NCBI RefSeq assembly: GCF_900103785.1
Contig: NZ_FNHE01000001.1
Location: 585,064-649,063, forward strand
Source of the DNA: Geodermatophilus siccatus
Lineage (GTDB): Bacteria > Actinomycetota > Actinomycetes > Mycobacteriales > Geodermatophilaceae
Direction: 5' to 3'
DNA length: 64,000 nt
Below, in pieces: positions 1 to 37,850 of the stretch. The notes under the pieces are model-generated. The model saw nothing but the letters and a program-made list of their open reading frames with translations. It searched no databases and was not told the DNA's origin. Every line of letters begins with the position of its first letter. Positions within the stretch are counted from its first letter, which is position 1. Position numbers and translations under genes: made by a program.

Positions 1-207
1 GTCCCCGTCGCCCACGATCACCAGGGCGGTGAAGCTGAAGCGCCGACCACCCTTGACGACCTTGGACACGCGGTTGATGGCCACCACGCGCTCGATGAAG
101 TTGCTCTTCTCGGCAGGCGCGCCGCCGGGCCCCCGCCCGCCGTCACGACGGTCGCGGCGGTCGTTGCCGCCGCCGGCGCCGCCGCCGCGTCGCTGTGGTC
201 CTGGCAT
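1..207 (-). CDS. rpsE: 30S ribosomal protein S5, N-terminal part (cut by window edge)
   Basis: The 207 nt present encode the first 69 residues of S5, a small-subunit protein involved in decoding accuracy. A short Gly/Arg-rich N-terminal tail is followed by the typical S5 start ([20 protein letters not shown], then [17 protein letters not shown]). The ATG at 207 has an AGAGGGA ribosome-binding site about 8 nt upstream and lies 31 nt after rplR, as expected inside the spc operon. The C-terminal part lies beyond base 1. Identity is secure; only completeness is missing. Confidence 0.95.
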
Positions 208-27877: not shown

Positions 27878-27932
27878 GCCCTCGCTGCAGGGGCCCGCCG
27901 CGAGCGTGCGAGCGGTGGGGGCAGCGAGGTCC
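27878..27932. repeat. copy 5 of the dispersed intergenic repeat, next to the nusG stop
   Basis: This is the most complete copy: GGCCCTCGCTGCAGGGGCCC, then GCCGCGAGCGTGCGAGCGG, then TGGGGGCAGCGAGGTCCT. The arms CTCGCTGC and GCAGCGAG are inverted repeats enclosing the core. The right end runs directly into the nusG stop codon. It lies between nusG and rplK, which are normally co-transcribed. Confidence 0.8.
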
Positions 27933-28834
27933 TACAGCTTCTGGACCTGGTTGAACGACAGCTCGACCGGCGTCTCGCGGCCGAAGATGGAGACCAGCAC
28001 CTGCAGCTTCTGCTGCTCGGCGTTGATCTCGTTGATCGTGGCCGGGAGGGTGGCGAACGGGCCGTCCATGACGGTGACCGACTCGCCGACCTCGAAGTCG
28101 ACGACGGTGGTCGGGGCGGCCGTGGTGGCGGTGCTCGTCGTTTCCGCCGCCTTGGTCGTCTGCGGGCCGGCCGCGGGGGCGAGCAGGCTGACGACCTCGT
28201 CGATGCTCAGCGGCGAGGGGCGTGACGTCGCCCCGACGAAGCCGGTGACGCCGGGGGTGTTGCGCACCGCGCCCCAGGACTCGTCGTTGAGGTCCATGCG
28301 GACGAGGAGGTAGCCGGGCAGCTTCTTCCGGTTGACCTGGGTGCGCTTGCCGTTCTTGATCTCGGTGACCTCCTCGGTGGGCACCTCGATCTGGAAGATG
28401 TAGTCCTCCATGTCCAGCGACTGGATGCGCGACTCCAGGTTGGTCTTCACCTTGTTCTCGTAGCCGGCGTACGAGTGGATGACGTACCAGTCGCCGAACT
28501 GGCCGCGCAGCACCTTGCGCATCGCCTCGGCCGGGTCGGCCTCCTCGTCGTCCTCGGTCTGGTCGCCCAGCCCGTCGAGGTCGGAGGACTCCGCCGGAGC
28601 GGCCAGCGGGTCGGTGGTCAGGCTGTCGGGGTCACCGCTCTCCACGTCGGGCGCCACGTCGGCCACGCCGGTGAGGGCGTCCTGGTCGGCGGTGTCGACG
28701 GAGCCCTCGGCAGCCCCGGTCTCGCCGGCGCCGGTCTCGACGTCCGCGGTGCCGCGCACGTCGAAGCGGGCGTCGTCGAGGTCGGTGGCCGGGACGGCGC
28801 TGTCGGTCTCGAAGGGCTCGCGGGGGTCGGTCAC
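27932..28834 (-). CDS. nusG: transcription termination/antitermination factor NusG with acidic N-terminal extension
   Basis: NusG binds RNA polymerase and couples it to Rho or the ribosome. The NGN domain begins near residue 113 ([20 protein letters not shown]) and includes [20 protein letters not shown] and [10 protein letters not shown]. After an Ala/Thr linker, the KOW domain follows ([20 protein letters not shown], then [19 protein letters not shown]). About 110 acidic low-complexity residues precede the NGN domain, making 300 in all against 180-250 typical. GTG start at 28834 with a GGAAGA site. Adjacent to secE as in nearly all bacteria. Confidence 0.97.
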
Positions 28835-28873
28835 GGTGTCTCTTCCTTGTCGGTGGTGCAGGCGCGGGTGGGC

Positions 28874-29410
28874 TCAGCCGAAGACGGCGAGCACGCCCTG
28901 GGCGAAGAGGAGGTCCAGGCCGGCCACCAGCGCGACGATGAAGGCCACGAAGACGATGACGACGGTCGTGTAGGTGATCAGCTCCCGGCGCCCCGGCCAG
29001 ATGACCTTGCGGAGCTCGGCGACGACCTCGCGGAGGAACCGGCGGATGCTGCGCCGCTGCCGCGCCTCGGCGGCGCGGTCACGCTCGGCGGCGGCCCGCG
29101 ACCGGGTCGGACCGCTCTCGGCGGGTCGCGACGGCGTGCGCTCGCGGGCGGCCCGGCGGGAGCGGGGGGCCGGCTCGTCGTCCTCGTCGTCCCCGGCGGT
29201 GATCCGGCCGCCGCGGCGGGCACCGGTCTGCCGCGCCGCCACGACCTTGTCCTCGTCGCTCTCGGCCTCGGCGGCGACCTCGGCCTCGGCGGCCTCCAGC
29301 TCGGCGGCGTCGGCCACGCCCGGCGCCTCGCGGTCGAGCTGCTCGTCGGTCAGCTCGGCGTCGGAGGCGGCGCGGGGGTCGCCCTCGCGTGCCGGCTTCT
29401 CGTCGCTCAC
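28874..29410 (-). CDS. secE: preprotein translocase subunit SecE with long acidic N-terminal extension
   Basis: SecE clamps SecY in the general secretion channel of the membrane. The conserved part is residues 120-178: an amphipathic helix with RRFLREVVAELRKVIWPGRR and one membrane segment at about 146-170 (TTVVIVFVAFIVALVAGLDL). Residues 1-118 are a charged Glu/Ala/Asp/Arg region without known domain; single-TM SecE proteins are normally 60-130 residues. The GTG at 29410 is chosen from a GAGGCGCA site; a start further in cannot be excluded. It lies between tRNA-Trp and nusG, the conserved actinobacterial order. Confidence 0.92.
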   Translation of the reverse strand: MSDEKPAREGDPRAASDAELTDEQLDREAPGVADAAELEAAEAEVAAEAESDEDKVVAARQTGARRGGRITAGDDEDDEPAPRSRRAARERTPSRPAESGPTRSRAAAERDRAAEARQRRSIRRFLREVVAELRKVIWPGRRELITYTTVVIVFVAFIVALVAGLDLLFAQGVLAVFG

Positions 29411-29519
29411 TGCGCCTCGCTCGCCTCGCTGGTGGTGGCCGTTGTCCTCGGGCCGACGGTCGGTGGTCGTGCTGTCGTGCGGGTCGTGCACGTCGCCGCC
29501 GGGGAGCCGGCGGCACGGG

Positions 29520-29592
<73 letters not shown>

Positions 29593-29593
29593 T

Positions 29594-29650
29594 GGAGGAC
29601 CCCGCCCTCCCCACCCCTCGCGAGCTCAGGGTGGGACCCGGGACGGGGCC
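29594..29650. repeat. degenerate copy 6 of the dispersed intergenic repeat
   Basis: GGAGGACCCCGCCCTCCCC followed by ACCCCTCGCGAGCTCAGGG and TGGGACCC, read on the minus strand, aligns with the copy beside rpoC (GAGCTCGCGAGgGGTGgGGAGG, then GGTCCTC). This copy adjoins the 5' end of tRNA-Trp rather than a stop codon, so the positional rule is not absolute. Confidence 0.5.
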
Positions 29651-29743
29651 GCCCGGGACCGCGTGACCCGCTCCGCGCGGCACCGTTCCCCGCGAGGGGT
29701 TCCGGGGCACGCCGGTGGCGGGGTCAGTGGCCCCAGGGCAGCC

Positions 29744-29774
29744 AGTGTACGGGACCGCGGAGGACGCCGACCAA
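29744..29774 (-). promoter_or_regulatory. possible promoter for tRNA-Trp-secE-nusG
   Basis: On the minus strand TACACT (29744-29749) resembles a -10 box, with TTGGTC (29769-29774) 19 nt upstream as a long-spaced -35. It would start transcription about 145 nt before tRNA-Trp. The -10 is good; the spacing is wide, so confidence is limited. Confidence 0.4.
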
Positions 29775-29878
29775 CGTGCCGGGCGGGGACTCCTGACGCG
29801 TCGGGCGGAAGGGGCGCCGGCGGGGTCGCGCCGGGATCGGAGGCGACCGCGCACACCGGCCTCCGACATGATGGGGCC

Positions 29879-31135
29879 ATGACCGCCGTCTCCCCCTCGG
29901 AGTCCGCTGCCCCGTCCCCCGGGCCATCGCCCGCCGACCGGCGCATCTCCCGCCGCATCGCCGCGATCGCCGAGTCGGCGACGCTGGCGGTGGACGCCAA
30001 GGCCAAGGCGCTCAAGGCCGCGGGCAAGCCGGTGATCGGCTTCGGCGCCGGCGAGCCGGACTTCCCCACGCCGGACTACATCGTCGAGGCCGCCGTCGCT
30101 GCCTGCCGCCAGCCGGCGATGCACCGCTACACCCCCGCGGGCGGGCTGCCGGCGCTCAAGGAGGCGATCGTCGCCAAGACCGCGCGCGACTCGGGGCTGC
30201 AGGTCACCCCGGCGAACGTGCTGGTGACCAACGGCGGCAAGCAGGCCGTGTACGAGGCCTTCGCCACGATGCTCGACCCGGGCGACGAGGTGCTGCTGCC
30301 CGCGCCGTACTGGACCACCTACCCCGAGGCGATCGCCCTGGCCGGGGGCGTGCCGGTGCCGGTCGTGGCCGACGAGGAGAGCGGCTACCTGGTGTCGGTG
30401 GCCCAGCTCGAGGCCGCCCGGACGCCGCGCACCAAGGTCCTGCTGTTCTGCTCGCCGTCCAACCCGACCGGCGCGGTGTACCCGCCGGAGCTGGTCGAGG
30501 AGATCGGCCGCTGGGCGTACGAGCACGGGCTGTGGGTGCTCACCGACGAGATCTACGAGCACCTCACCTACGACGGCGCGACGGCGCCGTCGATGCCGGT
30601 CGTCGTCCCGGAGCTCGCCGACCGCTGCGTCGTCGTCAACGGGGTCGCCAAGACCTACGCGATGACCGGCTGGCGGGTGGGCTGGGTCGTCGGGCCCGCC
30701 GACGTCGTCAAGGCCGCCACGAACCTGCAGTCGCACGCCACCTCGAACGTGGCCAACGTGTCGCAGGCGGCCGCGGTCGCCGCGCTGACCGGTGACCTGT
30801 CGGCCGCGGCCACGATGCGGGAGGCCTTCGACCGGCGGCGGCGCACGATCGTGTCGATGCTGCGCGAGATCCCCGGGGTGGCCTGCCCCGAGCCGCGCGG
30901 CGCCTTCTACGTCTACCCGTCGGTCAAGGCCCTGCTGGGCCGGCCGATCGCCGGCCGGATGGCGGCGGACAGCGTGCAGCTGGCCGAGATCGTCCTCGAG
31001 GAGGCGGAGGTCGCCGTCGTCCCCGGGGAGGCCTTCGGCACACCGGGCTACCTGCGGATGTCCTACGCCCTCGGCGACGACGACCTGGTCGAGGGCGTGA
31101 CCCGGATGCAGCGACTGCTCGGCTCGGCCGGCTGA
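29879..31135 (+). CDS. PLP-dependent aminotransferase, aspartate aminotransferase type
   Basis: A 418-residue class I aminotransferase, most like AspC-type enzymes that interconvert aspartate and oxaloacetate. Key features: [16 protein letters not shown] near residue 53, [36 protein letters not shown], the PLP lysine at about residue 258 in [17 protein letters not shown], and LRMSYAL near the end carrying the carboxylate-binding Arg. The ATG at 29879 follows an 18-residue Ser/Pro-rich unconserved start, so a later start is conceivable. Mycobacteria carry an aspC-like gene elsewhere, so its place here is lineage-specific. Exact amino-donor range is unknown. Confidence 0.88.
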
Positions 31136-31172
31136 GCAGGACGAGGCCCTCCTACTCGTCGAGGGCGCCTGC
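31136..31172. terminator. small hairpin between two convergent genes
   Basis: GCCCTC/GAGGGC (31146-31151 with 31161-31166), flanked by outer arms GCAGG and CCTGC, lies at the meeting point of the aminotransferase and the peptidase genes, which end only 16 nt apart. It overlaps the last codons of the peptidase gene and may end both transcripts. Confidence 0.35.
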
Positions 31173-32561
31173 CTCGGTGAGGACGTCGAGCGCCGCGGGC
31201 AGGTCCTCCAGCGCTCGTGCGACGTCGTCCGGCGTGGCGATCGTCCACGCGTTGGCGTCGACGTAGCAGCGCAGGGCGGCGTCGAACGCCTCGGCGCCCG
31301 CGGCCTCGCGGGCGGTCACGAGCGCGGCGCCGCCCTTGCCGTACACCCGGCGGAGGTACTCCGCGGCGCTGTCGAACTGGTCCATCGCGGCGCCCACCTC
31401 ACCGGGCGTGCCCAGCGCCCCCGCCGCGGCCTCCTCGGACACCGGGAAGGTGACGGACTCGGCGTAGGTGGCGAACGCCTCGTCCAGCCACGGATCGCGG
31501 AACTGGGAGTCGCCGACCATCCCGTAGAACCACATGTGCGCGACCTCGTGGAGCAGCACGCGCCGGTCGGCGCCGGCCAGCAGGATCGAGCTCGGGTACT
31601 CGATGCCGCCCCCCTCGATCGGCAGCAGCGGCACGGTGAGCGTGGCGTACGGGAAGGGGCCGAAGCGGGTCTCGAGCTGGTCGATCGCGGCGAGGGTCCA
31701 CGCGGTGAGCTCCCGGGCCGGGACGTCCGCGCCCGGCAGCACGCCGGTCGTGACCTCGACCCCGCCCCCGCCGGTGGCGCTCGCGGTGTCGAACTCCCCC
31801 ACGGCGACGCTCACGTCCCGGGCGACCGGCTCGACCGAGGTCCAGGTGCGCCGGCCGTCCTGCGGCGCGGCGGGTGCGGCCTGGTCGCCGGTCATGAGCA
31901 CGGTGAGCGCCTCGGGGACCGAGACCCGGACGGTCGTCTCGGCGACGGGGCTCGTCGCGGTCTCGCCCGGGAGGCCGACGAACGGGTCGCGGGCCCAGCC
32001 GACACCGGGCTGCCAGGCCAGCAGCGGCGCGCCGCTGGCCCACCAGGAGACGCCGTCGGCCGCGCCCACCCGCTCGAAGTCGCCCTCCCCGAGGGTGAGC
32101 GTGAAGTCCAGGGCCACCTCGGTCGCCTCCCCGGCAGGGAGCTCCCCGTCCAGCCGGACGACGAACAGGCCACCCGGGCCGTCGGCCCCGGCCTCCTCGT
32201 AGCCACTGCCGGCGACGTCGTCCCCGCGCGCGGCGTCGACGACCAGGCGGTTGCCGGCCGCGGCCGGCCCGGGCCCGTTGGGGACCAGCCGGAAGACCAG
32301 CTCGTCGGTGGGCAGGTCGGGGGTGAAGACGACGGTCTCGGTGCCGGTGACCGTGCGCAGGCCGTCGTCCAGCCGGAGGTCCAGCTCGACGACCGGCCGG
32401 TCGGGGTCGGGCTCGGCGCGCTGTGCGCAGTCCTCCTCGGCCGGCGTGGTGGCGGGCGGCGGGACCGACCGCTCGGCGGCGAGGGTGTCGACGAAGGATG
32501 CTCCGCAGCCGGGGAGCAGCAGGACGGCACCGAGCGCGAGCAGGGGCCGCCGCGCGGTCAC
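31152..32561 (-). CDS. M1-family metallopeptidase-like lipoprotein
   Basis: A 469-residue predicted secreted zinc aminopeptidase-like protein. The N-terminus is a lipoprotein signal (MTARRPLLALGAVLLLPGCG) with the lipobox Cys at residue 19, so the mature protein should be tethered outside the membrane. The gluzincin signature is complete: HEVAH at 338-342 and the third ligand Glu361 in WLDEAFATYAES, 18 residues after the second His. EGGGIEYPSS near 316-325 corresponds to the substrate exopeptidase loop of the M1 family (G-x-M-E-N), but altered, so true aminopeptidase activity is uncertain. It overlaps the hadB-like gene by 4 nt. Confidence 0.85.
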   Translation of the reverse strand: MTARRPLLALGAVLLLPGCGASFVDTLAAERSVPPPATTPAEEDCAQRAEPDPDRPVVELDLRLDDGLRTVTGTETVVFTPDLPTDELVFRLVPNGPGPAAAGNRLVVDAARGDDVAGSGYEEAGADGPGGLFVVRLDGELPAGEATEVALDFTLTLGEGDFERVGAADGVSWWASGAPLLAWQPGVGWARDPFVGLPGETATSPVAETTVRVSVPEALTVLMTGDQAAPAAPQDGRRTWTSVEPVARDVSVAVGEFDTASATGGGGVEVTTGVLPGADVPARELTAWTLAAIDQLETRFGPFPYATLTVPLLPIEGGGIEYPSSILLAGADRRVLLHEVAHMWFYGMVGDSQFRDPWLDEAFATYAESVTFPVSEEAAAGALGTPGEVGAAMDQFDSAAEYLRRVYGKGGAALVTAREAAGAEAFDAALRCYVDANAWTIATPDDVARALEDLPAALDVLTEAGALDE

Positions 32562-32986
32562 GCCAGCTGGACGGTGGCGCGGGCCAGCGAGAGCACCTTC
32601 TCGCCGCCGCTGGTGACGGTCAGGTCGACGCGGGCGCGGCCGTCCTCGCCCAGGGCGCCGACCTTGCCGCGGACGGTCACCCGGGCACCGGTGCCGTCGT
32701 CGGGGACGACGACCGGCCGACCGAACCGCACGTGGTACTCGACCAGCGCGCCCGGGTCGCCGGCCCAGGCGGTGACCGCGCGCGCGGCCAGCGCCATGGT
32801 GAGCATCCCGTGCGCGATGACGCCGGGCAGGCCGACCTCGGTGGCCACCCGCTCGTTCCAGTGGATGGGGTTGAAGTCACCGGAGGCGCCGGCGTAGCGG
32901 ACGAGGTCGGCCCGCGTGACGGGATAGGTCTGCTCGGGCAGCTCGGTGCCGACGGCGACGTCGGCGGCCCGCACCGTGGCGGTCAC
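32558..32986 (-). CDS. hadB: MaoC-family (R)-hydroxyacyl dehydratase, HadB-like
   Basis: A 142-residue hot-dog-fold hydratase. The hydratase-2 motif YAGASGDFNPIHWNERVA holds the catalytic Asp and His, followed by GLPGVIAHGMLTM. Order and sequence parallel mycobacterial HadB, the catalytic partner of HadA in the (3R)-hydroxyacyl-ACP dehydratase of FAS-II. GTG at 32986 has a GGGAGGG site. It lies 52 nt downstream of hadA and overlaps the peptidase gene. Since the presumed host does not make mycolic acids, the substrate is more likely ordinary fatty-acid or other acyl chains; that is inference. Confidence 0.87.
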   Translation of the reverse strand: MTATVRAADVAVGTELPEQTYPVTRADLVRYAGASGDFNPIHWNERVATEVGLPGVIAHGMLTMALAARAVTAWAGDPGALVEYHVRFGRPVVVPDDGTGARVTVRGKVGALGEDGRARVDLTVTSGGEKVLSLARATVQLA

Positions 32987-33038
32987 CGTGCCCTCCCTTC
33001 GCTCCCGCCCGGCGGAGCCGGCGGTGCTGCGGAGTCGC

Positions 33039-33485
33039 TCACGCGGTCCCCCGGGCGACGAGCATCGAGGTGGCCGCGCAGACCGGCTCGCCGTCCTCCG
33101 TGGCGACGTCCACGCGGGTGGTGAGCAGGTCGTTGCCGCCGACGCTGCGCACGGCCTCGATGACGGGCGTGGCGACGAGACGGTCACCGGCGCGGATGGG
33201 CCGGTGGTGGGTGAAGCGCTGCTCGCCCTGGACGACGCGGCTGTAGTCGAGTGCGACGTCGGGGTCCTCGACGACGACACCGGCCGCCGAGAGCGTCAGG
33301 GCGATGGCGAAGGTGGGCGGGGCGATCACGTCGGGGTACCCGGCCGCGCGGGCGGCCTCGGGGTCCCGGTGCACCGGGTCGGCCGCACCGATGGCGTCGG
33401 CGAACTCGGCGATCTTCTGCCGGCCGACCTCGTAGACGGCGGAGGGCGGGTAGCTGCGCCCGACCAGTGCCGGATCGAGCGCCAT
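33039..33485 (-). CDS. hadA: MaoC N-terminal-type dehydratase subunit, HadA-like
   Basis: A 148-residue hot-dog protein with the HadA-type N-terminus: VGRSYPPSAVYEVGRQKIAE, FADAIGAADPVHRDPEAARA and APPTFAIALTL, then VVQGEQRFTHHRPIRAGDRL. HadA is the substrate-binding, non-catalytic partner that dimerises with HadB. The ATG at 33485 has a GGGAGGGCGGGAG site. The order rpmG-hadA-hadB is the same as in mycobacteria (rpmG2-hadA-hadB), where hadC follows; no hadC is present here. Confidence 0.87.
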   Translation of the reverse strand: MALDPALVGRSYPPSAVYEVGRQKIAEFADAIGAADPVHRDPEAARAAGYPDVIAPPTFAIALTLSAAGVVVEDPDVALDYSRVVQGEQRFTHHRPIRAGDRLVATPVIEAVRSVGGNDLLTTRVDVATEDGEPVCAATSMLVARGTA

Positions 33486-33549
33486 GCTCCCGCCCTCCCT
33501 CTCGACGACGCGCTGGCTCAGCACGTCCCTGCGGTGGCTCGAGACCGCG

Positions 33550-33714
33550 TCAGCGGGTCTCGCGGTGCACGGTGTGCTTGCGGTCCTTGGGGCAGAACTT
33601 CTTCAGCTCGAGCCGGTCGGGGTCGTTCCGCCGGTTCTTGCGCGTGATGTAGTTCCGGCTCTTGCACTCCTGGCAGGCCAGGGTGATCTTCGGACGGATG
33701 TCGGTGGCTGCCAC
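33550..33714 (-). CDS. rpmG: 50S ribosomal protein L33, one zinc ligand replaced
   Basis: L33 is a small E-site protein. The 54-residue product has [20 protein letters not shown] and [15 protein letters not shown], typical of the zinc-binding form. Cys14, Cys17 and Cys41 are present, but the expected fourth cysteine (CPxC) is Asp44 (CPKD). A His two to six residues on could substitute. GTG start at 33714 gives the family length. It lies between tRNA-Met and hadA, the conserved actinobacterial position. Confidence 0.95.
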
Positions 33715-33791
33715 GGGGCGCTCCTCGCCTTGTCGGGACCGGGCCGGGCCCGGGACGCGCGAGCGGGTGCCCGCACGGTGCTGCAACACGC

Positions 33792-33821
33792 CGACGGACC
33801 CCGGGTGAGCGGGGTCCGTCG
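33792..33821 (-). terminator. hairpin after tRNA-Met
   Basis: A perfect 11-bp stem CGACGGACCCC/GGGGTCCGTCG (33792-33802 with 33811-33821) with an 8-nt loop begins 4 nt after the tRNA-Met 3' end. It should terminate the tRNA-Thr-tRNA-Met transcript or define its processing end before rpmG. Confidence 0.7.
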
Positions 33822-33825
33822 AGAG

Positions 33826-33899
33826 TAGCGGTGACCGGATTTGAACCGGTGACACAGCGATTATGAGCCGCTTGCTCTGCCTGGCTGAGCTACACCGCC
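33826..33899 (-). tRNA. tRNA-Met (CAT), elongator type
   Basis: A 74-nt cloverleaf: acceptor arms GGCGGTG and CACCGCT with A discriminator, D arm GCTCAGCCAGGCAGAGC, anticodon loop CTCATAA (CAT), and T arm ACCGGTTCAAATCCGGT. The first acceptor pair is G-T, unlike the unpaired C-A of initiator tRNA, and there are not three G-C pairs closing the anticodon stem. Elongator Met is therefore preferred; CAT tRNAs modified to read isoleucine cannot be fully excluded. Confidence 0.94.
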
Positions 33900-33959
33900 G
33901 GACGTGACCGTGCGACCCGGTCTCGGCAACCGGGCCGAGCGGCCACTGTGTTGTTCCAG

Positions 33960-34032
33960 AGCCCCTTTACGGAATCGAACCGTAGACCTTCTCCTTACCA
34001 TGGAGACGCTCTGCCGACTGAGCTAAAGGGGC
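33960..34032 (-). tRNA. tRNA-Thr (GGT)
   Basis: A 73-nt cloverleaf: acceptor arms GCCCCTT and AAGGGGC, D stem GCTC/GAGC, anticodon stem TCTCC/GGAGA with loop ATGGTAA (anticodon GGT), and T arm TACGGTTCGATTCCGTA. It lies 60 nt upstream of tRNA-Met on the same strand. Just upstream, CGTCAGG/CCTGACG (34044-34064) forms a 7-bp hairpin that contains the possible -10 box TAGAGT. Confidence 0.97.
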
Positions 34033-34100: not shown

Positions 34101-36644
34101 TCAGGAGCGCACGAACAGGCGCCGGTGCGGCGTGCCGGGGACAGCGGAGCGCACGCCGGTGCGGGCCAGGATCCAGCTCTCCAGCCGCTGGTCGGGCAGC
34201 GGCCGGCTGACCAGGAAGCCCTGCAGCTTGTCGCAGCCCATCTCGGCCAGCAGGTTGCGCGTCAGCTCGTCCTCGACGCCCTCGGCGACGACCCGCAGGC
34301 CCAGGTTGTGCGCCAGCTCGATGATCGAGCGGGCGATGAACGACTCGCCCTGGCTGGTGGCCATCCCCAGCACGAAGGACTTGTCGATCTTCACCTCGTC
34401 GATGGGCAGCTGGCGCAGCTGGGACAGCGAGGAGTAGCCGGTGCCGAAGTCGTCCATGGACAGCCGCAGGCCCAGGGCGTGCAGGTCGGCCAGGACGGTG
34501 CCGCTGCGCACCGAGTCGTCGACGACGCTGCCCTCGGTGAGCTCCAGGATCAGCAGCTCGCCGGGGACGGCGTGGCGGCGCAGGGCGCGCCGCACCCGGT
34601 CGACCAGGTCGGGCTCGGTGAGGCAGCGGGCCGAGAGGTTGACCGCCACCGACAGCGCGATGTCCTGGTCCAGCCACCTCCGGCAGCGGGCCAGCGCCAG
34701 GTCGAGCACGTAGTCGGTCAGGAGGCCGATCCGGCCGATCTGCTCGGCCAGGTGGATGAACTCGTCGGGCGCGATCGACCCGTAGCGCGGGTGCGCCCAG
34801 CGCACCAGGGTCTCCACCGAGACGATGTCGGAGGTGCGGGCGTCGATGATCGGCTGGAAGACGACGCTGATGTCGCCGTCGGCCATGGCCTGCTCGAGCT
34901 CGGTGCCCAGCTGCAGTCGGCGCAGGCTCTGCTGGTCGAGCACCGGGTGGTAGCTGGCCACGCCGCTCTTGCCGGCGCCGGCGAGCAGGGCGACGTCGGC
35001 CCGTTGCATGAGCGTGCCGGCGTCCGTGCCGTGCACCGGCGCGGCGGCGACGCCGATGGTCAGCGTCACCTCGAGGTCCAGGCCGGCGACCCGGGCGCGG
35101 GTCGAGGTCGCCTCACGCAGCCGGCGCGCGGCCCGCTCGGTCGCCGGCAGCGACAGCCCGGGCAGCAGGACGGCGAACTGCTCGCCCTCCATGCGGGCCA
35201 GGAGCGCCTGCGGCGGCGCGTGCTCCCGCAGCAGGCCGGCGGTGACCAGCAGCAGCTCGTCGCTGGCCGCGTGGCCGAGCGTGTCGGTGACCTCGGCGTA
35301 GTTGTCCAGCGAGGCGAGGATGAGGCCTGCCCGCCCGGCGACCGGGTCCTCGGCGAGCAGCTGGTCGATCTCGGCCGCGAGCCGCTGCCGGTTGGGCAGG
35401 CCGGTGAGCCGGTCGTGGTCGGCGTCGTAGCGGATCTGGGTCAGCAGCTGCTGCTGCCGGATCGCGGCGTTGACGTGCGTGAGCATCGACTCCAGGGCCG
35501 CCCGGTCCCCGTCGCCGAACGTGACGACGTCGTTCCGTCGGTCGCAGACCTCGAGATAGCCCGGTTCTCCTGCAGCGGTGGTCACCGGCGCGGCGAGGAC
35601 CTCCTCGGCACCCCGCCTGGACAGGGCAGCCACCTCGGCCTCCGTGGCCCGGGCGAGCGAGGTCAGGACCGGGCCGCCGCCATGGGTCCCCTCGGTGGCC
35701 CGCCGGCGGAAGAGGTCGTCGGGGTCACCGGGGCCGTCGTACCAGGCACGGCCGTCCTCCGCCGCGACGAGCAACCGCGGCTCCTCGTCCAGGTACGGCG
35801 GCAGCCACAGGGCCACGCGGTCGGCGTTGAGCAGCTCCTTGACGGCTTCGACGATCTGCCGGGTCCCGTCCGGCTGGGAGCTGACCTGCTCCACACGCCG
35901 GGCGAACTCGTAGACCCGCTCGAGGATCTGGCTCTCGCGCGTGACCGCGCCGAACCGGCGGTACAGGAGGGCCAGGGTGAGCACGAGGGGCAGGATGAGG
36001 AGCCACGACCACGGGGTGACGTGGACCAGGAGCAGCAGGGCGAGGCCCACGACGACGGCCATGGGACTGACCAGGACGACGGGGATGAGCAGACTGGCCC
36101 AGAGGGCCCGCCCGGGGTAGCCCTGCGTGAGCGTGATGGCGGCCGCGAGGCACAGCGCGCCGACCACGTTCGCCGCGAAGATGGCCACCAGGTAGAAGAG
36201 CCAGGTCGCGGGCGAGGAGATCGCCCCCACGGGCACGAGGTCGAGGACCACGACGGCCACGCAGGCCTCGAGGACGGACATGCCGACGTTGAAGGTGCCC
36301 TTGGCAGCCGGGTAGTGCTGCGCGACCAGGACGGCACCCACAGCGGCCCCTCGCGCCAGAGCCGCCCACGTCCCGCCGATCTCGACGAGCGCCACCACGA
36401 GGGCGAGCTCGCTCGCGGACCATGCGACGCCCTGTCCGCGGAACTCGAACTGGACGCTGAACACCTCGGCGGCCACCATGCCGGCGAAGACCAGGACGAA
36501 GAGGCGGAGATCGAAGGCCTCGGTGTGGTGCGGCACTATCGTCGCCACGGCGATCAGCGCAACAGCGACCACGGCGGCGGCGGCGAACCAGGGGTTCCGC
36601 AACGCCGACACCCGGATCGCCTTGCGGACCTCAGCATTCGCCAC
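34101..36644 (-). CDS. membrane GAF-GGDEF-EAL protein, probable c-di-GMP phosphodiesterase
   Basis: An 847-residue signalling protein. Residues 1-235 hold about seven hydrophobic segments (a MASE-like sensor), then a GAF-like region to about 395, a GGDEF domain (about 410-575) and an EAL domain (about 580-840). The GGDEF signature is EGEQF (486-490) and the upstream metal site reads SLDNYAEV, so cyclase activity is probably lost. The EAL domain keeps ETLVRW (611), NLSARCL, ELTEGSV, DDFGTGYSSL, KIDKSFV and AEGVED, so hydrolysis of c-di-GMP is plausible. GTG 36644 (AGGTC site) is preferred over TTG 36674, which has no site. Confidence 0.87.
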   Translation of the reverse strand: MANAEVRKAIRVSALRNPWFAAAAVVAVALIAVATIVPHHTEAFDLRLFVLVFAGMVAAEVFSVQFEFRGQGVAWSASELALVVALVEIGGTWAALARGAAVGAVLVAQHYPAAKGTFNVGMSVLEACVAVVVLDLVPVGAISSPATWLFYLVAIFAANVVGALCLAAAITLTQGYPGRALWASLLIPVVLVSPMAVVVGLALLLLVHVTPWSWLLILPLVLTLALLYRRFGAVTRESQILERVYEFARRVEQVSSQPDGTRQIVEAVKELLNADRVALWLPPYLDEEPRLLVAAEDGRAWYDGPGDPDDLFRRRATEGTHGGGPVLTSLARATEAEVAALSRRGAEEVLAAPVTTAAGEPGYLEVCDRRNDVVTFGDGDRAALESMLTHVNAAIRQQQLLTQIRYDADHDRLTGLPNRQRLAAEIDQLLAEDPVAGRAGLILASLDNYAEVTDTLGHAASDELLLVTAGLLREHAPPQALLARMEGEQFAVLLPGLSLPATERAARRLREATSTRARVAGLDLEVTLTIGVAAAPVHGTDAGTLMQRADVALLAGAGKSGVASYHPVLDQQSLRRLQLGTELEQAMADGDISVVFQPIIDARTSDIVSVETLVRWAHPRYGSIAPDEFIHLAEQIGRIGLLTDYVLDLALARCRRWLDQDIALSVAVNLSARCLTEPDLVDRVRRALRRHAVPGELLILELTEGSVVDDSVRSGTVLADLHALGLRLSMDDFGTGYSSLSQLRQLPIDEVKIDKSFVLGMATSQGESFIARSIIELAHNLGLRVVAEGVEDELTRNLLAEMGCDKLQGFLVSRPLPDQRLESWILARTGVRSAVPGTPHRRLFVRS

Positions 36645-36730
36645 TGATGACCTGCGTTCGTAGGGGCTGGACAAACAGGCCGAGGCTAGCAGCGGCAGAG
36701 CCCGGATCCAGCTCTCCTCACCCGGCCGAG

Positions 36731-36755
36731 GGGGGTGGCCCCAGCGGCCACCCCC
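36731..36755 (-). terminator. terminator after the RGGRWN micropeptide gene
   Basis: A perfect 10-bp stem GGGGGTGGCC/GGCCACCCCC (36731-36740 with 36746-36755) with a 5-nt loop starts 15 nt after the micropeptide stop codon on the minus strand. It makes the small gene a separate transcription unit from the GAF-GGDEF-EAL gene. Confidence 0.75.
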
Positions 36756-36770: not shown

Positions 36771-36878
36771 TCAGCTCTGCGCGTCGCGGTTCCAGCGACC
36801 GCCGCGGTTCCACCGGCCACCCCGGTTCCACCGGCCACCCCGGTTCCACCGGCCACCGCGCTGCACGTCGTTGCTCAT
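36771..36878 (-). CDS. 35-residue micropeptide with four tandem RGGRWN repeats
   Basis: Not a family I recognise. The peptide is MSNDVQ, then four RGGRWN units (residues 7-30), then RDAQS. It has nine Arg, four Trp and only two acidic residues, so it is strongly cationic. At DNA level the unit is an 18-bp tandem repeat with silent variation in the outer copies. Coding is supported by a near-perfect GAGGAGG ribosome-binding site 4 nt before the ATG, exact in-frame periodicity and a hairpin terminator 15 nt after the stop. Possible roles are a repeat-core RiPP precursor, a cationic antimicrobial or toxin, or an RGG-like RNA binder; none is shown. No modifying enzyme is nearby. Confidence 0.7.
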   Translation of the reverse strand: MSNDVQRGGRWNRGGRWNRGGRWNRGGRWNRDAQS

Positions 36879-37268
36879 GACGCCTCCTCAGGCATGAAGG
36901 ACTGCTCGAAAATGCGGGCAGACATCCAGGCGCGGGGGCAGAGCGTCATTCGGTACGGACCGCGCCGGAGAGATTGCTGCCCGTCACCCATTGGAGGCAA
37001 GCACCGTTACTCATCCCGACACAACCAGGTGTCATGCCGTCACACACTGTGGCGACATGTGACCCTGTGTACCTCGATCGGGGTACACGTGGGCCTCCTG
37101 CGCCAGCAGGGAAAGGAGGGTCGGCCGGAGCCCGGGCCCGTCGGCGTGTCGCGGTGGGTCCACAGACCCGGGCGCGGCCTACCGGCGTTCCCCCGATCGG
37201 GTCCACAGCCCTCCACAGCGCCGTCCACAGCTCGTGGACAGGTCGGGCAGCCACCTACGCTGCGCCGC
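36879..37268. other. intergenic region between the micropeptide (minus) and TadE-like gene (plus)
   Basis: This 390-nt divergent region is less GC-rich than its surroundings. It contains the micropeptide ribosome-binding site (36883-36889), an imperfect palindrome GTGTCATGCCGTCACAC (37029-37045) that could be an operator, and a cluster of TCCACAG motifs (37156-37241). I could not pick a convincing promoter for either gene. A 22-codon minus-strand frame (ATG near 37016) is present but unsupported. Confidence 0.5.
37156..37241. repeat. cluster of TCCACAG motifs
   Basis: TCCACAG occurs at 37159-37165, 37202-37208, 37212-37218 and 37224-37230, and in inverted form as CTGTCCAC at 37234-37241. The first lies in a GGGTC-CACA-GACCC palindrome, and the last direct copy forms GTCCAC-N5-GTGGAC with the inverted one. 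The motif resembles actinobacterial DnaA boxes (TTGTCCACA) without the leading TT. It could be a regulator-binding array for the adjacent TadE-like gene. Confidence 0.6.
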
Positions 37269-37758: not shown

Positions 37759-37768
37759 GTGTACCGGG

Positions 37769-37850
37769 TGGCGGGTGAAGGATTCGAACCTTCGTAGGCT
37801 AAGCCGACGGATTTACAGTCCGCTCCCATTGGCCACTCGGGCAACCCGCC
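37769..37850 (-). tRNA. tRNA-Tyr (GTA)
   Basis: An 82-nt class II tRNA: acceptor arms GGCGGGT and ACCCGCC with A discriminator, anticodon stem/loop GGACTGTAAATCC (anticodon GTA), a long variable arm (GTCGGCTTAGCCTAC region) and T arm GAAGGTTCGAATCCTTC. A TACGAT box (37867-37872, minus strand) just upstream could be its -10 element. Confidence 0.97.

Follow-up and report, generated by a model that had tools for sequence, protein, structure and literature searches.

Yeast alpha-factor and Gram-positive peptide signals derive from precursors that hold multiple copies of a peptide pheromone. The locus described here resembles these precursors in that one product carries identical copies of a short, species-specific peptide and has as its gene neighbour a membrane protein whose domain is sensor-like, and in that the peptides of other lineages have a hydrophobic, export-like N-terminus and variable linkers. 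It differs in that the Geodermatophilaceae peptide has no export signal and in that the partner is a GGDEF-EAL protein, not a kinase, a Rap-type protein or a GPCR. The predicted fold of the partner's membrane domain is like that of ECF S-components (RibU, FolT, ThiT, biotin S-component); unlike these, the domain is fused to GAF-GGDEF-EAL.

By domain make-up, the partner can be likened to Streptomyces RmdB, which two papers describe as a c-di-GMP phosphodiesterase with eight transmembrane segments, GGDEF-EAL and a dispensable GGDEF motif (PMC13232838, PMC6205966). Both proteins have membrane helices, GGDEF and EAL, and the window protein has EGEQF at its GGDEF site; it differs in its GAF match and its predicted S-component-like membrane domain. 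Neither "upstream" nor "small peptide" was found in PMC13232838. The c-di-GMP-binding motif of CleD is [Y/F]XGP[D/E][R/K]R, flanked by Arg and Asp (PMC5677366). The repeat unit described below, RGGRWN, is likewise part of a short tandem aromatic/basic motif beside c-di-GMP signalling; however, it has no GP or D/E, the tandem CleD pattern does not occur among the family's units, and related units are acidic. Each known kind that we compared fails a defining feature or has one that is beyond sequence analysis, and we therefore set the module apart as a new kind. Within our partial coverage of the literature, which left most subscription journals outside, the peptide, its units and the gene pair are not described, and the sole match to a unit string was a DNA consensus in an unrelated paper. 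Together, a G-x-x-W-x motif and a membrane GGDEF-EAL enzyme suggest an undescribed peptide signal for that enzyme.

The window is the whole 64,000-nt stretch of Geodermatophilus siccatus DNA that was analyzed. It contains the following micropeptide gene:

36771..36878, minus strand: micropeptide ORF of 35 aa, MSNDVQ-(RGGRWN)4-RDAQS, based on translation and orthologues
36789..36860, minus strand: four 18-nt RGGRWN units (36843-36860, 36825-36842, 36807-36824 and 36789-36806), with a core, GGRWN, of the G-x-x-W-x type
36883..36889, minus strand: ribosome-binding site GAGGAGG, with the ATG 4 nt further on; conserved block ATGCCTGAGGAGGCGTCATG in the leader alignment

The original prediction had described a 35-codon ORF with this composition, a GAGGAGG site 4 nt 5' of its ATG, and an 18-bp repeat with silent codon differences in the outer units. 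Translation confirmed the first and the sequence the second, and the third was borne out by TRF, which detected the 18-bp array with a score of 117, and by a unit-by-unit comparison: the DNA of units 2 and 3 is identical, unit 1 is one codon off, and unit 4 is four codons off. The prediction was also right that this is an easily missed, multi-unit gene outside described families, as the micropeptide had no family match in Pfam, NCBIfam or PHROGs. Nothing better than E 0.2 was returned when it was searched against PDB sequences, its predicted structure has a pLDDT of 56 without secondary structure, and its sequence, on reading, shows no hydrophobic N-terminal stretch or signal.

A protein search in 61 relatives identified loci whose frames encode the same type of peptide. 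The gene is preceded by a conserved leader:

36876..36992, minus strand: conserved 5' leader, match to model R1 ending at the ATG (G000:C20:621939-622055; 101/112 family genomes)
36930..36965, minus strand: near-invariant leader core GCGCGGTCCGTAC-n-GACGCTCTGCCCCCGCGC; a short stem is possible, with no covariation support

We used the leader model (113 positions) to scan genomes of the family and of the class. The leader was found in 101 of 112 Geodermatophilaceae genomes, including 92 of the 96 of good quality, and under strict filters in 2 of 394 class-sample genomes, both of which are Geodermatophilaceae. Each leader is followed by a W-motif micropeptide, giving 102 peptides from 101 genomes; genome G095 has two complete modules with differing units. 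All but two of the peptides (100/102) parse into two to five units, the others being a single unit in G033 and an irregular sequence in G129. Because a leader and a small W-repeat ORF are kept at the same place in 101/112 genomes, the RGGRWN micropeptide gene is beyond chance, and it is real. Of the family genomes, 11 gave no leader match, and most of these have no close orthologue of the partner enzyme. An exception is G099, which has two GGDEF-EAL homologues (~31-33% identity), each with its own upstream micropeptide, MSRNGRWGRNGRWGRNGRWGRS and MSRAGRWGRAGRWGRAGRWGR, carrying three copies of RNGRWG and three of RAGRWG.

The exact RG-W pattern matched in 56/112 family genomes vs 17/112 for its backwards control, and given that control rate, identity was judged from sequence. 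In the class, this pattern matched in 22/394 genomes, two of them in the family; at the one locus read in each of the other 20, there was no ribosome-binding site with a comparable short repeat ORF. A wide scan for three copies of R-x-x-[KR]-W-x matched 119 of 388 class genomes and was rejected, as the backwards control also matched widely and the rows looked like ordinary tandem repeats. A scan of an 84,980-species collection covered the K-form in three copies; it returned 64 stretches, of which 35 encode the micropeptide and 29 look like chance repeats. Of these 35, 31 have the strict leader string and four, from Klenkia, do not. The K-form micropeptides belong to records of Geodermatophilus, Blastococcus, Klenkia or Geodermatophilaceae, plus one record labelled Bacillus sp. 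AZ43, which carries an unverified flag.

The leader core, CTCTGCCCCCGCG (36930-36965), shows stronger conservation than either the peptide or the gene of the partner. As a structured RNA, the leader was rejected: the alifold covariation term of its stem was -0.03, a second hairpin had a mean z of -0.29, and an Rfam scan returned only tRNAs at gathering score, with chance matches below it. A second promoter-and-leader core occurs 0.6-2.2 kb upstream of the micropeptide at L109 (G003), L110 (G006) and L111 (G013), where it is followed by a small hydrophobic ORF (70 aa in G003, 77 aa in G006 and, by eye, ~47 aa in G013). Judged by its sequence context, the leader behaves like a portable regulatory element.

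Based on 101 peptides (G129 was dropped), the unit has the general form R-x-x-[K/R]-W-[small]. Positions 1 and 5 are R and W in all 101, position 4 is K or R in 98, and position 6 is limited to G, S, T, N or A. A G fills position 2 in 77/101, and at position 3 we counted 14 different residues. Of 316 unit pairs compared inside arrays, 296 have the same protein sequence (pS 0.395, pN 0.012, pN/pS 0.03). Protein identity extends to every unit in 89 of 100 arrays, and in 80 of those 89 the units are encoded by at least two DNA versions. The residue at position 3 differs in 0.95% of pairs from the same array vs 88.6% of between-genome pairs. Recent DNA copying does not account for this identity: inside arrays, codon identity is 0.664, which does not exceed the value between genomes sharing a unit, 0.656 at the same index (0.595 at different indices). 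On these sequence comparisons, unit identity is maintained at the protein level while the unit changes in concert between species, and selection holding each species' own unit is strongly supported; the predicted selection on the peptide is thus upheld by the pN/pS ratio and by positions that are constant within arrays and variable between species. It is a rare evolutionary pattern for the units of an array to diverge at silent sites and keep one protein sequence, and yet to change in concert between species.

The number of copies varies with the residue at position 3. With W (21 peptides) or F (five) at position 3, there are always two copies, whereas N, G, S and A are associated with means of 3.4-3.8. 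We computed contrasts on the partner-protein tree (aligned to the window protein) for three property scales. Bulkier position 3 residues go with fewer copies (residue volume: contrast r -0.42, with p 2.5e-4 by permutation); the contrast r was 0.39 (p 4e-4) for interfacial hydrophobicity and -0.30 (p 0.004) for the Kyte-Doolittle scale, for which the raw rho was 0.04. Aromatic residues number three or four in 93/102 peptides. We read this trade-off as units contributing additively to binding.

The sequences surrounding the micropeptide bear on its transcription:

36971..37000, minus strand: promoter-like TTGCCT-18-CAATCT, not consensus; a looser pattern is kept across the family
36731..36755, minus strand: 10-bp GC hairpin, 15 nt past the stop, without a T-run; probable terminator, with fold z taken over 101 loci
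36683..36691, minus strand: TGCTAGCCT, which resembles an extended -10 element and is probably the GGDEF-EAL gene's promoter

Consensus sigma-70 promoters were absent from a scan of the window locus; however, TTGN[CT]N-16..18-NANNNT is present upstream of the micropeptide in 90/101 loci vs 5% of shuffles. The hairpin reported by the original prediction is present and has a mean fold z of -2.75 across the 101 loci; the terminator role given to it is less secure, as it lacks a T-run and a consensus terminator scan of the locus found no T-tail match. In 31/51 loci vs 2.5% of shuffles, palindromes of the form GTCAC-N3..12-GTGA, a probable operator judging from sequence, lie 5' of the promoter (window 37000-37200).

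The order of short ORF, hairpin and gene, together with the repeated Trp and Arg codons, raises the question of whether the micropeptide is an attenuator leader peptide that controls the GGDEF-EAL gene in cis. We consider this very unlikely. The extended -10-like sequence lies between the hairpin and the GGDEF-EAL gene in 81/101 loci, and with a promoter-like sequence and hairpin of its own, the micropeptide is probably its own transcription unit and not an attenuator. An attenuator does not need identical units and leaves the species-specific positions 2, 3 and 6 unexplained. W and F at position 3 both go with two copies, so the Trp codon count is not what is kept; there is also no run of codons for one amino acid, as the Trp codons are six codons apart and each peptide has one to five repeat Trp.

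The original prediction overlooked the gene on the 3' side of the micropeptide, which encodes a membrane GGDEF-EAL protein:

34101..36644, minus strand: partner gene, membrane domain + GAF + GGDEF + EAL; the start may be a TTG at 36674
35826..36644, minus strand: partner membrane domain with a predicted ECF S-component-like fold, based on a structure model and Foldseek

This gene lies downstream of the micropeptide at 101/102 loci, and at the remaining locus the contig ends first; the flank on the YajQ side varies more than the GGDEF-EAL side. The sequence data thus make the pairing of the two genes well supported. Where GGDEF and EAL would stand, the partner has EGEQF and ETL, respectively, and both DDFG and EGVE are intact; going by these residues, the enzyme looks more like a phosphodiesterase. 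Unit-specific co-variation with 395 N-terminal partner columns was not detected (p 0.60).

We modelled the membrane domain (window 35826-36644) with AlphaFold2 from 11 diverse sequences, and the model has a mean pLDDT of 82. By title, the first 13 Foldseek matches in the PDB are RibU, FolT, ThiT, biotin S-components, a transition-metal transporter and two transporter chains that we take to belong to the ECF family. The best match had a probability of 1.00 and an E-value of 9.8e-3, with none at 0.001 or better and sequence identities of 9-20%. The domain is thus predicted to resemble ECF S-components. Since S-components bind small ligands from outside, a peptide pocket in the modelled domain is plausible.

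Relatives in other families were picked up by searches with the partner membrane domain or profile A3, so that the partners of motif ORFs share this membrane-domain type; their upstream DNA was then read. Octapeptide arrays, DGGSWTFA and DGNTWTFV, are encoded in two genomes from another family of the order, and in a third family GALWG occurs twice upstream of a homologue. Many other relatives have small, exported-looking peptides that contain identical copies with variable linkers (AGASWN x3, ASNGWQ x4, AGTSWH x3, AASIWN x3, AGSGWH x3) or just one motif close to the C-terminus (SHKWY, GVVWL, DVVWT, DITWN, GRRWI, GHRWS). Long ORFs end in long W arrays of GLRWN, GAGWR, GATWS or GRTWA. Across lineages, the unit period is 5, 6, 8 or 9. 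Seven relatives gave weak matches only against the libraries, with none at E 0.05 or better.

The counts are based on 93 windows, each 960 nt long and with 900 nt or more of upstream sequence; orthologues of the micropeptide and windows shorter than this were excluded. Seven of the 93 are Geodermatophilaceae paralogues or come from outlying genera. A genome can contribute several windows, and those that share a genome or lineage are not independent. Under strict criteria that were fixed after the first examples had been seen, 56/93 windows have a W-motif ORF. In 39 of them the ORF is long, with a periodic W tail, and in 17 it is small. A small ORF preceded by a ribosome-binding site and containing a repeated W-containing 5-mer occurs in 15 windows, and an ORF with a hydrophobic start and a W near the C-terminus in 13, these two classes having a union of 21. 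A hydrophobic N-terminal stretch is present in 13 of the 17 small W-motif ORFs. The motif is missing from 37 windows under the strict criteria, or from ~33 if four by-eye cases are added (total 60). Each strict criterion gave 0/93 on the opposite strand, and 20 passes of dinucleotide shuffles, which addressed the small-ORF criteria only, gave none. In a control of 20 random 20-kb stretches from six of the genomes, both strands, 6/800 windows matched, none resembling the motif by eye. A looser 4-mer repeat criterion matched 31 windows on the same strand but also 18 on the opposite strand.

All seven long W-tailed ORFs that were scanned, of 39, are Peptidase_S8 subtilases. They are like mycosin-type subtilases in that TIGR03921 is their best NCBIfam match; however, all seven score 109-150 bits vs a curated cut-off of 278.75, and they differ from mycosins in their W-repeat tail. 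Upstream of two GGDEF-EAL paralogues within the family (L270 in G087 and L272 in G008), the place of the micropeptide is taken by a Peptidase_S8 ORF that has a W-repeat tail.

The motifs of other families keep G-x-x-W and not the charges, as in DGNTWTFV and DGGSWTFA, which speaks against two general functions offered by the original prediction, a cationic antimicrobial and an RGG-type RNA binder. The RGG reading is further weakened in that position 2 is G in 77/101 family peptides and that R is absent in the DG- and GALWG-type relatives. A cytosolic peptide that binds c-di-GMP or RNA through Arg and Trp side chains, by analogy with CleD, also seems to us a poor prospect. A c-di-GMP enzyme is its constant neighbour, and CleD peptides bind c-di-GMP via a tandem aromatic/Arg motif (PMC5677366); however, the homologous pairs of another family have acidic units, and elsewhere it is exported proteins that carry the motif in such pairs.

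The subtilase tails also bear on whether G-x-x-W-x is a secreted or surface adhesive, that is, a tag for binding or self-assembly (cell wall, polysaccharide, each other), with the GGDEF-EAL protein controlling the same biofilm or developmental programme without sensing the motif. Long tail arrays (about twenty copies of GAGWR, nine of GLRWN) resemble avidity or assembly tags, and identical units with a trade-off between bulk and copy number would fit homotypic or multivalent binding. On the other hand, periods of 5, 6, 8 and 9, single motifs and variable linkers are more in keeping with a short linear motif than with a periodic structure, and two-unit micropeptides without a signal fit badly. 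We regard this reading as rather unlikely.

The original prediction had compared the peptide with multi-core precursors. In the wide sense of identical copies of one short peptide, this is possible; in the RiPP sense, it lacks an adjoining maturase, in line with the earlier observation that none is next to the gene: around it lie ORFs of GGDEF-EAL, TadE-like and YajQ/DUF520 type together with tRNA-Tyr, and none matched a maturase. A RiPP-like modified peptide (e.g., with a W-x-R cross-link) would need a maturase encoded elsewhere. Identical cores, species-specific sequence and a short N-terminal leader are features that such a peptide might show, and one SPASM radical-SAM match was present in 18/18 genomes tested, so that a maturase may act in trans; however, an RRE/PqqD model was missing in 9 of those 18, the last unit often has no following Arg, and the motif is also carried by large exported proteases. 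From these sequence features, we judge a RiPP-like product improbable. The RiPP, RNA-binder and attenuator readings are all weaker than the ligand reading.

In the ligand reading, to which we give about an even chance, the micropeptide is the free-standing form of a wider actinobacterial G-x-x-W-x module, and the motif is a species-specific ligand or obligate partner of the membrane domain. The carriers of the motif would be subtilase tails, small exported-looking peptides or micropeptides, encoded directly upstream of the GGDEF-EAL gene, and the window peptide would present several identical GGRWN copies with Arg between them. Once translated at whatever level, processed or released and, in Geodermatophilaceae, exported, the motif, released or presented in multiple copies, would bind the S-component-like membrane domain, and this binding would tune c-di-GMP turnover, probably hydrolysis. 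The main gap is that Geodermatophilaceae peptides have no hydrophobic signal with which to reach an outward-facing pocket. A more specific version, which we hold tentatively and find somewhat doubtful, is an undescribed actinobacterial peptide-signalling system in which a species-specific pentapeptide, released from exported subtilases, small exported peptides or micropeptides that each bear it in several identical copies, is sensed by an S-component-like GGDEF-EAL receptor and sets c-di-GMP; the window micropeptide would be its most reduced, signal-less form. If true, this would give actinobacteria a peptide input into c-di-GMP, which controls development in Streptomyces, with adjacent genes for ligand and sensor and a ligand sequence that can be read from the genome. 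Because units are identical within arrays and change in concert between species, ligand-sensor co-evolution is directly testable by unit swaps.

The surroundings of the locus include ORFs for NusG and SecE and genes for tRNA-Trp, tRNA-Met and tRNA-Thr, which lie downstream on the same strand (window 27932-34032). The tRNA-Tyr gene is at 37767-37850, on the other side of the micropeptide locus. An ORF at 31152-32561, ~4 kb from the micropeptide, has a short Peptidase_M1 match (38 residues, E 1.7e-10).
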